From DHVE2 group archaeon (GTDB lineage Archaea; Thermoplasmatota; Thermoplasmata; Thermoplasmatales; Aciduliprofundaceae), in NCBI GenBank assembly GCA_026993785.1, contig JALWRZ010000003.1, forward strand, positions 62,001-126,000: a stretch of DNA of 64,000 nt. Direction: 5' to 3'. A model generated the notes under the pieces. It was not told the DNA's origin and ran no database searches. It worked only from the letters and a program-made list of their open reading frames with translations. A program made the translations under genes and the position numbers. Position 1 is the stretch's first letter. Every line of letters begins with the position of its first letter. Positions 14,576 through 19,468 of the stretch are shown piece by piece.

Positions 14576-14696
14576 GCCCCGGTAGTGTAGCGGCCTATCA
14601 TGCGGGCCTGTCGAAAAGCCCCTTTGGAAAAGGTGCTTTACCCCCAAAGGACTTTGCGGTTAGCCCGCGACCCGGGTTCAAATCCCGGCCGGGGCG
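14576..14696 (+). tRNA. tRNA-Asp (GTC) with a 48-nt intron
   Basis: The acceptor arms GCCCCGG (14576-14582) and CCGGGGC pair, with discriminator G at 14696. The D-arm GTGTAGCGGCCTATC is characteristic of archaeal tRNA-Asp. The anticodon stem is CGGGC (14603-14607) with GCCCG (14663-14667). The loop CTGTCG reads anticodon GTC at 14610-14612. The T-arm is CCGGG-TTCAAAT-CCCGG. The intron (about 14614-14661) interrupts the canonical position between bases 37 and 38 and contains its own hairpin (CCTTTGG with CCAAAGG). CCA is not encoded. The exact intron ends may shift by a base or two. Confidence 0.95.
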
Positions 14697-14900
14697 CTAG
14701 AAACGGTTCAGGATTTTCTCGGTTCGCTACTCCTTGATTTCCAAAATCTGCCATTTCACTCATTTAAAAGAAAAGGCATGATAGAAAAACTTATCCATAC
14801 ATATTTGCGCCTACAAACTTCCTTTTCTGAGTTTATTCTCTAAGAGCTCTTTCTCCTTAACACAAAGCAGAGGTACGGTATATTACCAAGAGCAGAGTAT

Positions 14901-16094
14901 CTATGATGACCCATTTTTTCCAGGTACTACTAACCAATACCCTAATCCTGCCATAAAATAAAGAGCTCCCGCCAAGACGAATGGTAGGTATACCCATAGC
15001 GAGATTAGTAAAACACTCACAAAAGGTGCAGCTGCAGTGGAGACTCGGAAGGCCGTGGACATTGAACCAAAAAACATGCCTCTCTTCTCTTCCGGAATAG
15101 TATTGAAGAGCATTGTTCTATGCACTGGAAACCAGAACAAGTTTCCCAAAGTTTGAACTATTATTCCTATGAGAACTGGAATTATGCTCATCTGCCATGC
15201 AGCTAGAATGTAAAATACATTGACACACGCAAAAAGTATCACACCTCCGATTAAAAGAGATCTTTTACTCACTTCTCTACTCTTTAAATAATGCCCGCCA
15301 ATTATAGTCACTGCAGAGTTCGTAACCTCTAATAGCATCAATACAAAAAAACTCTGTTTAAGAATGAACATGACAAAATAGGTTAGTGTGATGGTGGGAA
15401 CCATGGATTCTGCCACTATCAGAGAATCCTCAATTAAGAAAAGCGATAGAAAATCCCTAGGTATTGAGAATTTGAAGCTCTCTTTCTCTATTTTCTCTTT
15501 TCTTATGTCTTCTATTGCATAGAAAATGTAAACTATCATCAAAAAAGAGCCTGCAGAAACAAAAAGCAAAGTGTTTCTGTACGCGAAAACGCCTGGATAG
15601 ATGTACGTGAGAAAGAATCCAAATAGTGGAAATGCCACAATTTGAACATACTCGGGAATCATTAGATGATATATCATAGCTTTTTCTCTTATTTCTTCAG
15701 GATACACATAATGCTCGTATGTGGGAAATATGGGATAAAACACTGTTGCAAATTTCATGATGAATACACCCAGCACCAGAAAAATCCAAGTTCCAGGGCC
15801 TGAGACCAGGTAGAAGAAGAAGTAAGCGAGTCCTTCAAGAAAATAGATTAAACTCATCGCGAGCTTTGCACTTATCTTTGTATCATACAATCTTCCTAAA
15901 AGGGCAGGAAACAAAAGCTCAATAAAATTTATTGCAGTAAAAACAGCACCCACGCTTATTACCTTGTACCCCGTTAAGAGCAAGTACACCAGCACGACAT
16001 AGTCCCCAATCATTAGCGGCGACCCTATTGTATGTAGAAGAATATATCGCCTAGCATTCTCCGGTAGATTTCCGAATTTTTCAATCATACTCAT
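14901..16094 (-). CDS. MFS transporter, probable exporter of the modified peptide
   Basis: This 397-residue polytopic protein has about 12 predicted helices in two halves and an MFS-type loop (GRLYDTKISAKLAM, near residue 75). The second half carries GNLFWFPVHRTMLFN and EEKRGMFFGSMSTAFR. It is the last gene of the radical SAM/PqqD-like operon. Its ATG overlaps the tail of the second radical SAM gene by 14 nt, with the ribosome site GAGGTG lying inside that gene. This tight coupling suggests that it moves the pathway product, most likely outward. Import of a precursor cannot be excluded. No substrate can be read from the sequence. Confidence 0.85.
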   Translation of the reverse strand: MSMIEKFGNLPENARRYILLHTIGSPLMIGDYVVLVYLLLTGYKVISVGAVFTAINFIELLFPALLGRLYDTKISAKLAMSLIYFLEGLAYFFFYLVSGPGTWIFLVLGVFIMKFATVFYPIFPTYEHYVYPEEIREKAMIYHLMIPEYVQIVAFPLFGFFLTYIYPGVFAYRNTLLFVSAGSFLMIVYIFYAIEDIRKEKIEKESFKFSIPRDFLSLFLIEDSLIVAESMVPTITLTYFVMFILKQSFFVLMLLEVTNSAVTIIGGHYLKSREVSKRSLLIGGVILFACVNVFYILAAWQMSIIPVLIGIIVQTLGNLFWFPVHRTMLFNTIPEEKRGMFFGSMSTAFRVSTAAAPFVSVLLISLWVYLPFVLAGALYFMAGLGYWLVVPGKNGSS

Positions 16095-17175
16095 TTTTAA
16101 CGCACCTCGGATCGGGTCGGTCTATGGTGTTGTAAAACCCATAAGCCATTCCAGTACATCCACCTTTACACAGACTGATATAAGGGCATTTTTCACAGAC
16201 TGTATTTTTTAGATTTCTTTTTAGCAAAGAAGGGTCCCAATTGGACCATATCTTTTCTATGTCTTCCCTTAACACGTTTCCCATTAGAAATTTTGGGAAT
16301 TGCAAATATACGCAGGGATAGACATCTCCATTAGCAGCTATATGAAATTTAGTTATCCCTGCATCACAATGTATGTTTTTAGTTTTTTCATTTTTTATGT
16401 AGAAAGTGATATTTTTTATAGTGTTTATATATTGACATAATTCTCCTCTAATACCCCCAAGGTATCTTATGCCTCTCTTCTCTAAAATTCTTTCAACTTT
16501 TTTTTCTATATCTATAGCAAGTTTTGGATCAGGAATAAGATGTAAGTCTCTTTTATTGAAAACTGCAAGTGGAGACGCACCAAAACCATCCACCCAAGGT
16601 ACTATTTTGGCCAATGTATCTAAATGATTTATATTTAATTTAGTAGGTACTGTATTTATAGTAACGGTTATCCCCACATCCTTTAATAAGATGATATTTT
16701 TAATAACCTTATCCCATAATCCTTTTCCTTTTATAGATTCATATATTTCTTTGGGCCCATCTAGGCTTATTTGTACTATATCGTATTTTGATAATAAGTC
16801 ACTTAAAACTAAAATATTTCTTTCATTGAGTAAGGCTCCATTTGTTTGTAATGTTATAAATATATCTGTATTTAGCTTTATATATTTTATGATTTCTAAT
16901 AAATCTGGTCTTATAAAGGGTTCACCACCTGTTATTATTAATTCAATAATGCCTAAAGATTGTAAATCATCTATAACTCGTAGAATTTCATGTTCTTTCA
17001 TGTTTTCAATTCTTACTTTATCATTATAAATATTATTATAGCAATAAAAACATTTTAAATTACAATAAGAAGTAATTTCAAAGCTGGCCGATACTGGACG
17101 AAATCTTTTCTCCCAATGGATAGATACAATATGATTTAACAGATCTATATAATCTCTTAGTTTATATTTATTCAA
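16081..17175 (-). CDS. Radical SAM/SPASM peptide-modifying enzyme, second of the pair
   Basis: This probable peptide maturase uses S-adenosylmethionine and iron-sulfur clusters. The radical SAM cluster motif CNLKCFYC (CX3CX2C) begins at C38. A complete SPASM domain follows at the C-terminus: C-x12-G-x4-C (ending GDVYPC), then CEKCPYISLCKGGC (CX2CX5CX3C), then a last Cys in PDPRC. This predicts two auxiliary [4Fe-4S] clusters, as in PqqE and AnSME relatives. I place the start at TTG 17175, seven nt after GGAGG in the tail of the preceding gene. An ATG at 17196 would overlap that gene and lacks a ribosome site. It differs clearly from its neighbour, so the two probably do different reactions. 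Confidence 0.9.
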   Translation of the reverse strand: MNKYKLRDYIDLLNHIVSIHWEKRFRPVSASFEITSYCNLKCFYCYNNIYNDKVRIENMKEHEILRVIDDLQSLGIIELIITGGEPFIRPDLLEIIKYIKLNTDIFITLQTNGALLNERNILVLSDLLSKYDIVQISLDGPKEIYESIKGKGLWDKVIKNIILLKDVGITVTINTVPTKLNINHLDTLAKIVPWVDGFGASPLAVFNKRDLHLIPDPKLAIDIEKKVERILEKRGIRYLGGIRGELCQYINTIKNITFYIKNEKTKNIHCDAGITKFHIAANGDVYPCVYLQFPKFLMGNVLREDIEKIWSNWDPSLLKRNLKNTVCEKCPYISLCKGGCTGMAYGFYNTIDRPDPRCVKNEYD

Positions 17176-17177
17176 AT

Positions 17178-18380
17178 TTATTCCCTCCATTTGCATCTAG
17201 GATCTGGTTTATTAAAATTTTTATATTTATAATAAGTAGCACCATAGCATCCTCCACTACAGATTTTAGAGAGTTCACATTGTCCACACTTATGAGGGGA
17301 TGCCATACGATATTCCCTAAAAATTTTTGATATATTATTATCTATTGTCCATATGGATCTCAATTTTTGCTCTTTAATATTTCCTATCCTAAATTCAGGA
17401 TATTGTAAAAATACACAAGGATATACATCTCCATTATAATTTATGTTGATTTTTGAACTAAAAGCTACACACCCTGTTCTATTGACATAACCATATATCT
17501 CTTGAAAATGTTGTTGCACGATGCTTTTTACATGAGGAATAAAATAAAAAGGAGGTAATCCTATGATTTGTGTATGGGAATTTTGCTTCTCATATTTAAA
17601 TGCTCTATTAAGACTGCGAATAACCTCAAAAAATTTTTCCGGCTCTCTATAAATGGGATCATCAAATTGAAATGGTGGTACTACAGAAAAACCAGAATTT
17701 ATACCAATTTCTGAGGCCAACAAATACACTTTATCTAAATTGTTATAATTGAATTTGGTAATTACAGTATTAGTTCTAACATTTAGACCATATTTCAGTA
17801 ATTCCTTAGTATTCTCTACTACTTTATAAAAAGTATCTGCGGAAGTGGTGTTGTAATGATCTTTTCTATTATAAGCCAATAAGCTTACCTGTATAGCATC
17901 ACATTTATTATCTAACAATTTATATATTTCTTTAATAACAGGTTGTGATAGTAATGAGCCATTTGTAAGTATATCCACGCAAATATCAGTATTCTTTTTT
18001 ATATATCTTAATATTTCCAACATATCCTTTCTTACAAAAGGCTCACCCCCTTCTATAGTTAGAATAAGAACGCCCATATCATTTAATTCATCTATCATTT
18101 CTTTTGCTTCCTCTGTTGTGAGTTCGTTAATATTAGAATTAAGATTATGTTTGAAATAGCAAAAATAGCATCTATGATTACACCGCGAAGTAGATTCCCA
18201 CTGTACCTCCGTGGGTGCGCTAAAATGAGATACTTTTTTTAATTTAATCAATCCCTCTAGAATTTCTATAAAATCCCAGAAAGTATACTTTGATCTAAAA
18301 GATCGCTCTTTCATCATTTTTCTTATATATATATTTATGTAATTTTTAATCTCTCTTGTAATATCCTCATCAATCACCAT
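17178..18380 (-). CDS. Radical SAM/SPASM peptide-modifying enzyme, first of the pair
   Basis: This is a probable peptide maturase of the PqqE/MftC type, about 400 residues long. The radical SAM motif CNHRCYFC (CX3CX2C) begins at about C67, preceded by the QWESTSR strand. The SAM-binding TIEGGEPFVR follows. The SPASM domain is complete: C-x12-G-x4-C ending GDVYPC, CGQCELSKICSGGC (CX2CX5CX3C), and the final Cys in PDPRC. The start is uncertain by up to 9 nt (GTG 18386, ATG 18380 or GTG 18377) because AGGTGATT sits directly in front. The N-terminal 50 residues are helical and basic. It lies 20 nt after the PqqD-like gene and is followed at once by the second radical SAM gene. Confidence 0.91.
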   Translation of the reverse strand: MVIDEDITREIKNYINIYIRKMMKERSFRSKYTFWDFIEILEGLIKLKKVSHFSAPTEVQWESTSRCNHRCYFCYFKHNLNSNINELTTEEAKEMIDELNDMGVLILTIEGGEPFVRKDMLEILRYIKKNTDICVDILTNGSLLSQPVIKEIYKLLDNKCDAIQVSLLAYNRKDHYNTTSADTFYKVVENTKELLKYGLNVRTNTVITKFNYNNLDKVYLLASEIGINSGFSVVPPFQFDDPIYREPEKFFEVIRSLNRAFKYEKQNSHTQIIGLPPFYFIPHVKSIVQQHFQEIYGYVNRTGCVAFSSKININYNGDVYPCVFLQYPEFRIGNIKEQKLRSIWTIDNNISKIFREYRMASPHKCGQCELSKICSGGCYGATYYKYKNFNKPDPRCKWRE

Positions 18381-18400
18381 AATCACCTACATATAATTAT

Positions 18401-18664
18401 TTATACTTGACATATTATTTTTTCTTTTAACAAAATATCTATTAATTTTTTAGGATCAGCATTCAAAGAGTTCAAAATAAAATTTTGTAGATATTGTATT
18501 GTCAAACGTTTATCTTTATATGACTTAATATAAAGAATTACTTTATATACCACCGCATTCCCAACGAATATTCTCCCTGTTTCCTTGTTAAAAATAAATA
18601 AAGTGCCCCCATCTACATCCGGTTCATATCGGAAAACCAGATGGGGGCATAGTAAAACATCCAT
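18401..18664 (-). CDS. PqqD-like RiPP recognition element
   Basis: This 87-residue protein has the PqqD fold pattern: CPHLVFRYEPDVDGGTLFIF, then NKETGRIFVGNAV, then helices with ADPKKLIDILLKEKII. Proteins of this family bind the leader of a precursor peptide and present it to the radical SAM enzyme. It lies between the short peptide gene (4-nt gap, with the ribosome site GGTGA overlapping that gene's stop) and the first radical SAM gene. The stand-alone form, not fused to either enzyme, implies that it could serve both. The family call is strong; the partner is inferred from position. Confidence 0.88.
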   Translation of the reverse strand: MDVLLCPHLVFRYEPDVDGGTLFIFNKETGRIFVGNAVVYKVILYIKSYKDKRLTIQYLQNFILNSLNADPKKLIDILLKEKIICQV

Positions 18665-18668
18665 AATC

Positions 18669-18791
18669 TCACCATATGGTCCCGCCGTGGTGTGATCTCT
18701 GAGAGGCTGTTCTTTCGAACCAAATTTGCTCCATGTTTATATTGTGCTCTATCAGCCAATTATCTATGTTTTGTATATACACTCCTTCCAT
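18669..18791 (-). CDS. Putative RiPP precursor peptide, 40 residues
   Basis: This short gene opens the operon. It has the strongest ribosome site in the neighbourhood, AGGAGGT at 18799-18805, seven nt before the ATG at 18791. The 40 residues contain no Cys, Lys or Pro. The N-terminal part (MEGVYIQNIDNWLIEHN and following) is acidic and helical, suiting a leader for the PqqD-like protein. The C-terminal part, TASQRSHHGGTIW, carries Arg, two His, a Gly-Gly pair and a terminal Trp, suiting a modified core. The stop lies 4 nt before the PqqD-like gene. I do not recognise it as a described precursor family. Expression and modification are inferred. Confidence 0.78.
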   Translation of the reverse strand: MEGVYIQNIDNWLIEHNINMEQIWFERTASQRSHHGGTIW

Positions 18792-18821
18792 GTTTATTAC
18801 CTCCTAAGATCCATAATAATT

Positions 18822-18855
18822 TATAATATAAAAACTTTGTTGTATTATAATAAGT
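18822..18855 (-). promoter_or_regulatory. Candidate promoter of the RiPP operon
   Basis: Two TATA-like boxes read on the minus strand: TTTTTATATTA (18824-18834) and TTATTATAATAC (18843-18854). The nearer one would start transcription almost on the ribosome site. The farther one leaves a leader of about 30 nt and fits better. Confidence 0.42.
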
Positions 18856-19053
18856 GTTACTTTAATTGTCTGATTATTATATTTTCGCCTATCAATCTCT
18901 TATAATGGAAATAATTACTATATATTCAACAAATATTTAACAAAATAATCAAATACCTTTTAAATATTCATCTTACAACTTTCATATGCCTTGCTAATAT
19001 TATTAGCTTAATCTAAAACAAAGTCATTATTATTTATTATCTTGCTAATAAAA

Positions 19054-19312
19054 TTATGACTTAAGCTCACATTTAATGAACAGATAATTCCCTGAGCCCG
19101 TTAAGATATAGAACCAACACATAATTATATATTCTAAATAGTTTTTTGTATGCTCTCTATTTTCAAAGTGCCTTGCAAGTTCTTTAAGGGCGCCAGTTAG
19201 TTTATAAAAATGTTCTTTCTTGATCCTTATTATTTCTCTCCTCTTTCCCCTCTTTTTCTATCTCACTATGTATCTTATTTTCTTCTCGTTCAGCTTCATC
19301 CATCTCTTCCAT
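19054..19312 (-). pseudogene. Possible decayed ORF in an AT-rich gap
   Basis: The 18.86-19.47 kb gap holds no intact gene. On the minus strand an ATG at 19312 opens a charged 36-codon frame (MEEMDEAEREENKIHSEIEK and on) that stops at 19202. An overlapping frame then stays open to 19054 and looks protein-like (KEHFYKLTGALKELARHFEN ... YIIMCWFYILTGSGNYLF) but has no start codon of its own. One frameshift would join them. Family unknown. Confidence 0.28.
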
Positions 19313-19468
19313 CCCCACCAAGTGGGAAATTTTTTCGGGACTATACAAAAATCTATTCTAAATGAAAGCATTATGTAAGTTTTAAAACCACAAAATAAAA
19401 ATTTAACGCCGAAGTTTTTACCCTTCCTGCAAAAACATTGAAATACTAACCTCCACTATAGATGAGCA

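Follow-up and report, generated by a model that had tools for sequence, protein, structure and literature searches.

Positions 14901–18791 of the window (the whole 64,000-nucleotide stretch of DNA analyzed here) contain five genes, all on the minus strand, which encode a 40-amino acid (aa) peptide, an 87-aa protein, two radical SAM (rSAM)/SPASM enzymes, and an MFS transporter (Table 1). These are the five leftward-running genes set out in a preliminary description of this DNA, and the close packing reported there was likewise found, gene B beginning 4 nt past the stop codon of peptide gene A and gene D sharing a 14-base overlap with the MFS gene. A recognizable Shine-Dalgarno site lies ahead of each of the five genes. 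Enzyme C most likely starts at the ATG at 18380, with GGTGAT as Shine-Dalgarno sequence (the longest ORF begins at 18386), and enzyme D most likely starts at the TTG at 17175, with GGAGGG as Shine-Dalgarno sequence (the longest ORF begins at 17196). GC content is 25–30% over genes A–D, 35–40% over the MFS gene, and 44–51% in the flanks (∼47% for the region). The tRNA-Asp gene next to this low-GC island was missed by the default tRNA scan and was detected only with introns allowed. Both the island character of the locus and its tRNA neighbor had been overlooked in the preliminary description.

Table 1. Features of the five-gene locus and its immediate surroundings, in window positions
Feature	Position	Strand	Description and basis
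A, putative precursor peptide gene	18669..18791	-	40 aa, MEGVYIQNIDNWLIEHNINMEQIWFERTASQRSHHGGTIW, cysteine-free; ORF and Shine-Dalgarno site
Shine-Dalgarno GGAGGT of peptide gene A	18799..18804	-	Sequence
B, probable stand-alone RiPP recognition element (RRE; PqqD-like fold)	18401..18664	-	87 aa; AlphaFold2, Foldseek
C, rSAM/SPASM enzyme	17178..18380	-	Pfam PF04055, PF13186; cysteine motifs
D, rSAM/SPASM enzyme	16081..17175	-	Pfam PF04055, PF13186; cysteine motifs
E, MFS transporter, a recruited family gene	14901..16094	-	PF07690; orthologs without cassette; DNA boundaries
Low-GC island	14750..19450		GC content
tRNA-Asp (GTC), 48-nt intron, abuts island	14576..14697	+	ARAGORN with introns allowed

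The ORF of peptide A carries GGAGGT directly upstream of its ATG. Of 3000 dinucleotide shuffles of the sequence upstream, 7 yielded, within 260 nt of the end, an ORF of 35 aa or longer with such a 6-mer, so a chance origin of the peptide ORF is unlikely. Some caution is called for, as third-codon GC is 49–50% in peptide A, which has only 40 codons, versus 22–24% in B, C, and D. The peptide ends in HHGGTIW, and its second half contains Trp, Phe, His, and Arg, the residue types that take part in the radical C–C and C–O crosslinks of streptide, tryglysin, darobactin, and related peptides. Because peptide A has no cysteine, thioether links inside the peptide are impossible, and intrapeptide thioether chemistry of the sactipeptide or ranthipeptide kind was ruled out. 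No match to the peptide was found in Pfam or NCBIfam and nothing significant among plasmids, and the genome and plasmid searches made returned no close or convincing relative. Because these searches gave no homologous precursor, conservation does not separate the leader of the peptide from its core.

Protein B had been called PqqD-like, a designation that is borne out by its predicted fold and not by sequence profiles, as no match was obtained in Pfam (including PF05402, PqqD), in the NCBIfam PqqD and RRE models, or among PDB sequences. Of five AlphaFold2 models computed from the single sequence, one was confident (pLDDT 87.5) and the rest were not (37–52); the RRE assignment rests on the confident model, which consists of strands followed by three helices. 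In a Foldseek search of the PDB, ranks 1–11 were occupied by RiPP proteins only; the top match was leader-bound TbiB1 (E = 5.6e-4, probability 1.00), and further matches were lasso B1, ThcOx, CteB, and McbBCD, with SuiB lower down. From this ranking of solved RREs, B is most likely a stand-alone RRE with a PqqD-like fold. The gene set and the predicted fold lend good support to the earlier reading of a RiPP-type operon in which leader binding falls to a separate protein, and the locus has the general hallmark of RiPP systems, i.e., a ribosomal precursor adjoining modifying enzymes and an RRE. Sequence searches returned no convincing relative of B and at most one weak relative, an 87-aa protein encoded by a Streptococcus equinus plasmid (pairwise BLASTP, E = 8e-4). 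This RRE-like plasmid protein is annotated as a phosphoglycerate mutase, and its locus (L167, 3926–8515) also carries a MutR-type regulator gene, two rSAM genes, and ABC transporter genes.

Enzymes C and D both score above the Pfam thresholds for Radical_SAM and SPASM, and each contains CxxxCxxC and all seven SPASM cysteines; at 32% identity to each other, they are the two non-identical enzymes with complete cysteine motifs that had been described. Among 209 rSAM ORFs from part of the loci collected, C and D were each other's best match, which suggests that the pair arose by duplication inside the cassette. The nearest solved relative of C is SuiB, and the best solved relatives of D include the peptide- or protein-modifying SPASM enzymes anSME, CteB, SkfB, SuiB, and PqqE. 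Outside the pair, the closest matches by score were general archaeal SPASM proteins of 470–500 aa with identities up to 35%, and the substrate class is therefore unproven by enzyme sequence. A 32-row enzyme tree, in which branches were long, did not place C or D. Neither enzyme reached an NCBIfam equivalog cut-off. Assignment to the PQQ pathway (pqqA–E) was rejected, PqqE (TIGR02109) scoring 93 and 85 bits against a cut-off of 381, as was identity with viperin, whose models matched just the shared rSAM core.

The MFS gene has relatives outside any such setting. Copies 69–92% identical to it were found in five genomes of the family, none of them close to a gene for a peptide or an rSAM enzyme, and in four of these five the MFS gene adjoins a Hef-like helicase gene. 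The Hef-like helicase gene of the window genome itself (L202, contig C14) has no MFS neighbor. DNA similarity to the closest copy, in genome G007, is 86% and spans 14936–16086, starting a few bases inside the MFS ORF and stopping shortly ahead of its stop codon. The window transporter is 88–92% identical to its counterparts in another genus versus 77% to that of a same-genus genome, and its third-codon GC (39%) is close to that of the other-genus copy (38%), the neighboring genes of its own genome being at 51–55%. Judging from the relatives' copies without the cassette, the DNA boundaries, and third-codon GC, the MFS gene has an evolutionary history separate from that of the cassette and was added to it, and its overlap with gene D suggests subsequent use for export or self-protection. 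Of the earlier designation of an MFS exporter, the presence of an MFS gene (PF07690) in the operon stands, with the qualification that this is a recruited family gene that did not co-evolve with the operon.

The cassette is present in 1 of 18 genomes of the family, no ortholog of enzyme C being found in the 17 others (some of which are incomplete). The search for such orthologs spanned genome samples that together took in most of 1,991 genomes (Thermoplasmatota relatives, by phylum and class; one archaeal phylum via an Archaeoglobi genome; and, for bacteria, the class and phylum to which a Lachnospiraceae genome belongs), as well as genome contigs, plasmids, phages, and viral contigs. The preliminary description had proposed searching archaeal genomes for the peptide, the enzymes, and the gene order; no archaeal ortholog cluster of enzyme C was found in the sampled genomes or, for genome contigs, among the matches listed, and no convincing relative of the peptide was obtained, while a partial set was detected in one Thermoplasmatota genome (L163, below). 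The cassette was probably acquired horizontally. Flanking repeats indicative of site-specific integration at the tRNA-Asp were looked for and none were found, and integration of this kind is not supported. In the relative G009, the same tRNA-Asp lies near a serine-recombinase fragment (L162, 4843–5094), from which the tRNA-Asp site may be an integration hot spot.

Across all samples (for contigs, among the matches listed), similar gene sets were limited to three Bacillota genomes, a clostridium, and, more distantly, L163. The Bacillota genomes (L221–L223), which are probably Caldicellulosiruptor, carry the order peptide/MFS/RRE/rSAM/rSAM. This cassette resembles that of the window in its five components, low-GC locus, and 87-aa RRE, and in a 32% identity to enzyme C over residues 9–399; in L221, the two SPASM enzymes are also mutually closest among those compared, as in the window. 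In contrast to the window operon, its RRE passes PF05402, which B does not, its 24-aa precursor (MKNYSKPVVKRVVRGLVVMGGHKV) is unrelated in sequence to peptide A, and its MFS gene stands second rather than last. No description of the L221–L223 cassette was found in the literature searched. In L223, a transposase gene disrupts the gene for the second enzyme. The clostridial locus (L226) has the order MFS/45-aa ORF/PqqD protein/rSAM/rSAM, with both enzymes of the SPASM type and the 45-aa ORF giving MAKEKKSKFVSPKVRKVACIPCMSLE when read from an inner ATG. L163 (genome G034, contig C1, 6782–10262) belongs to the same order of archaea as the window and encodes, in closely packed genes, a 40-aa peptide (MNKQKDDEIWGEKTLHEVYGKFNEIGFVTACMKCKSQKIA), two SPASM-type enzymes, and an MFS protein; unlike the window operon, it has two cysteines in the peptide and enzymes that are only distantly similar, and no RRE gene was seen. 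The window genome (G000) itself contains a second RiPP-like island on contig C10 (L164, 8841–11408, 33% GC), with genes for a 44-aa peptide ending in QLGCYSALRICPPIAFI, an rSAM/SPASM protein whose N-terminal extension may be an RRE, and an MFS protein. The precursors of the compared cassettes show no evident similarity to each other.

Two named systems are also reminiscent of the operon. SynChlorMet combines a PqqD-like protein with two SPASM enzymes (ScmD, ScmE, and ScmF in NCBIfam model names), and ScmE is the best NCBIfam model for enzyme D (126 bits). Membership was nevertheless rejected, as ScmE and ScmF score far below their 400-bit cut-off and B does not match ScmD; the window island, moreover, has no further ORFs for the other genes that we take to make up the full SynChlorMet cassette. 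The tryglysin operon wgkABCD of the streptococcal RaS-RiPPs comprises a short precursor, an rSAM/SPASM enzyme, a stand-alone RRE (WgkC), and a transporter, and uses a single rSAM enzyme (PMC8092268). It differs further in its WGK core, a motif absent from peptide A, and WgkB (NF050035) scored 120 and 106 bits against 650, which excluded the operon from this group. The preliminary description had held that two SPASM enzymes per peptide would be new. This claim was too strong given the recurrence of the gene set, the same components being found in L221–L223 and L226, two SPASM enzymes with a PqqD-like protein in SynChlorMet, and part of the set in L163. Archaeal rSAM RiPP clusters have already been reported in large numbers, and Thermoplasmatota is one of the archaeal phyla with the greatest wealth of biosynthetic clusters, all types taken together (PMC12144867). 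The operon is of a kind already known, also in bacteria; peptide A and the chemistry predicted for it match nothing found.

A joint reading of these observations, which we consider likely, is that of an acquired RiPP operon in which peptide A is presented by the RRE, modified by C and D, cleaved, and exported. The 40-aa peptide would be the substrate and its N-terminal part the leader; B would grip this leader and present the peptide in trans to C and D, paralogs that both lack the space to accommodate an RRE domain themselves. C and D would introduce radical modifications, either two distinct ones or two in succession, into the Trp- and His-containing C-terminal part (approximately residues 24–40). 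Given the lack of cysteine, C–C or C–O crosslinking at Trp, His, or Phe, or oxidation or decarboxylation at the C-terminal Ile-Trp, would be the likely chemistry in place of thioether formation. A host protease whose gene lies elsewhere would then cleave the modified peptide, and export of the product could plausibly fall to the MFS protein, whose recruited gene comes last and is translationally coupled. A role of the product in competition or signaling is more likely than one as a cofactor.

Crosslinking is given a larger share than a mycofactocin-like route, in which the enzymes would act on the C-terminal Ile-Trp and a C-terminal fragment would be released as a redox cofactor or signal. The window order peptide–RRE–rSAM/SPASM is that of mftA–mftB–mftC, and MftC oxidatively decarboxylates and then crosslinks the Val-Tyr at the C terminus of MftA (PMC5682303). 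Both precursors have an aromatic C terminus (…HHGGTIW in peptide A, …IDGMCGVY in MftA), MftC (TIGR03962) ranks second among NCBIfam models for C as well as for D (131 and 126 bits), and the RPEP seen in two of three MftB proteins reads RYEP in B. However, these scores are far under the MftC cut-off of 265 bits, B matches neither the MftB model (TIGR03967) nor a profile built from three MftB proteins, and the C-terminal resemblance comes to two residues of an end that is conserved as IDGMCGVY in mycofactocin precursors. Mycofactocin loci also have one enzyme and the genes mftD, mftE, and mftF, which the island lacks, while the MFS gene points to export. The operon was accordingly not assigned to mycofactocin, and a mycofactocin-like route appears improbable. 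Likewise doubtful is an archaeal counterpart of mycofactocin in which the paralogous SPASM pair would convert the Ile-Trp end of the RRE-bound peptide to a small molecule derived from tryptophan, either exported or cofactor-like.

Two further explanations would dispense with a modified peptide altogether or with its present-day function. C and D could be metabolic enzymes, either of the tetrapyrrole AhbC/AhbD or NirJ type or acting on lipids, with the short genes unrelated to them. AhbD is indeed the top NCBIfam model for C, and the nearest proteins by score outside the pair are the archaeal SPASM proteins of 470–500 aa, but the AhbD score is 134 bits against a cut-off of 500 and AhbC reaches at most 95 against 650. 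TIGR04545, TIGR04546, and TIGR04051 all fell below cut-off, and heme AhbC/AhbD and NirJ identities were rejected. With an adjoining RRE fold that has no known role in heme synthesis and a cassette that occurs sporadically, as a low-GC island, at odds with a core pathway, a metabolic role is very unlikely. The transferred cassette could instead be decayed or non-functional, the MFS gene being its sole part under selection, as might befit a cassette seen in a single family genome and with one related bacterial copy disrupted by a transposase gene (L223). Five open frames, a full complement of catalytic cysteines, and clean Shine-Dalgarno sites argue against decay, which we regard as highly improbable.

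To our knowledge, the RiPP products described from archaea are few, and those modified by rSAM enzymes exist largely as predictions. If the mycofactocin-like reading were true, the product would be a small molecule without described precedent. As an RiPP operon, the locus is a compact system for testing, with a peptide free of cysteine, a separate RRE, and two related SPASM enzymes, in an organism that is probably thermophilic. The gene set recurs in Bacillota and partly in other Thermoplasmatota with unrelated precursors, and the operon lets one ask how two paralogous SPASM enzymes share work on one short peptide.
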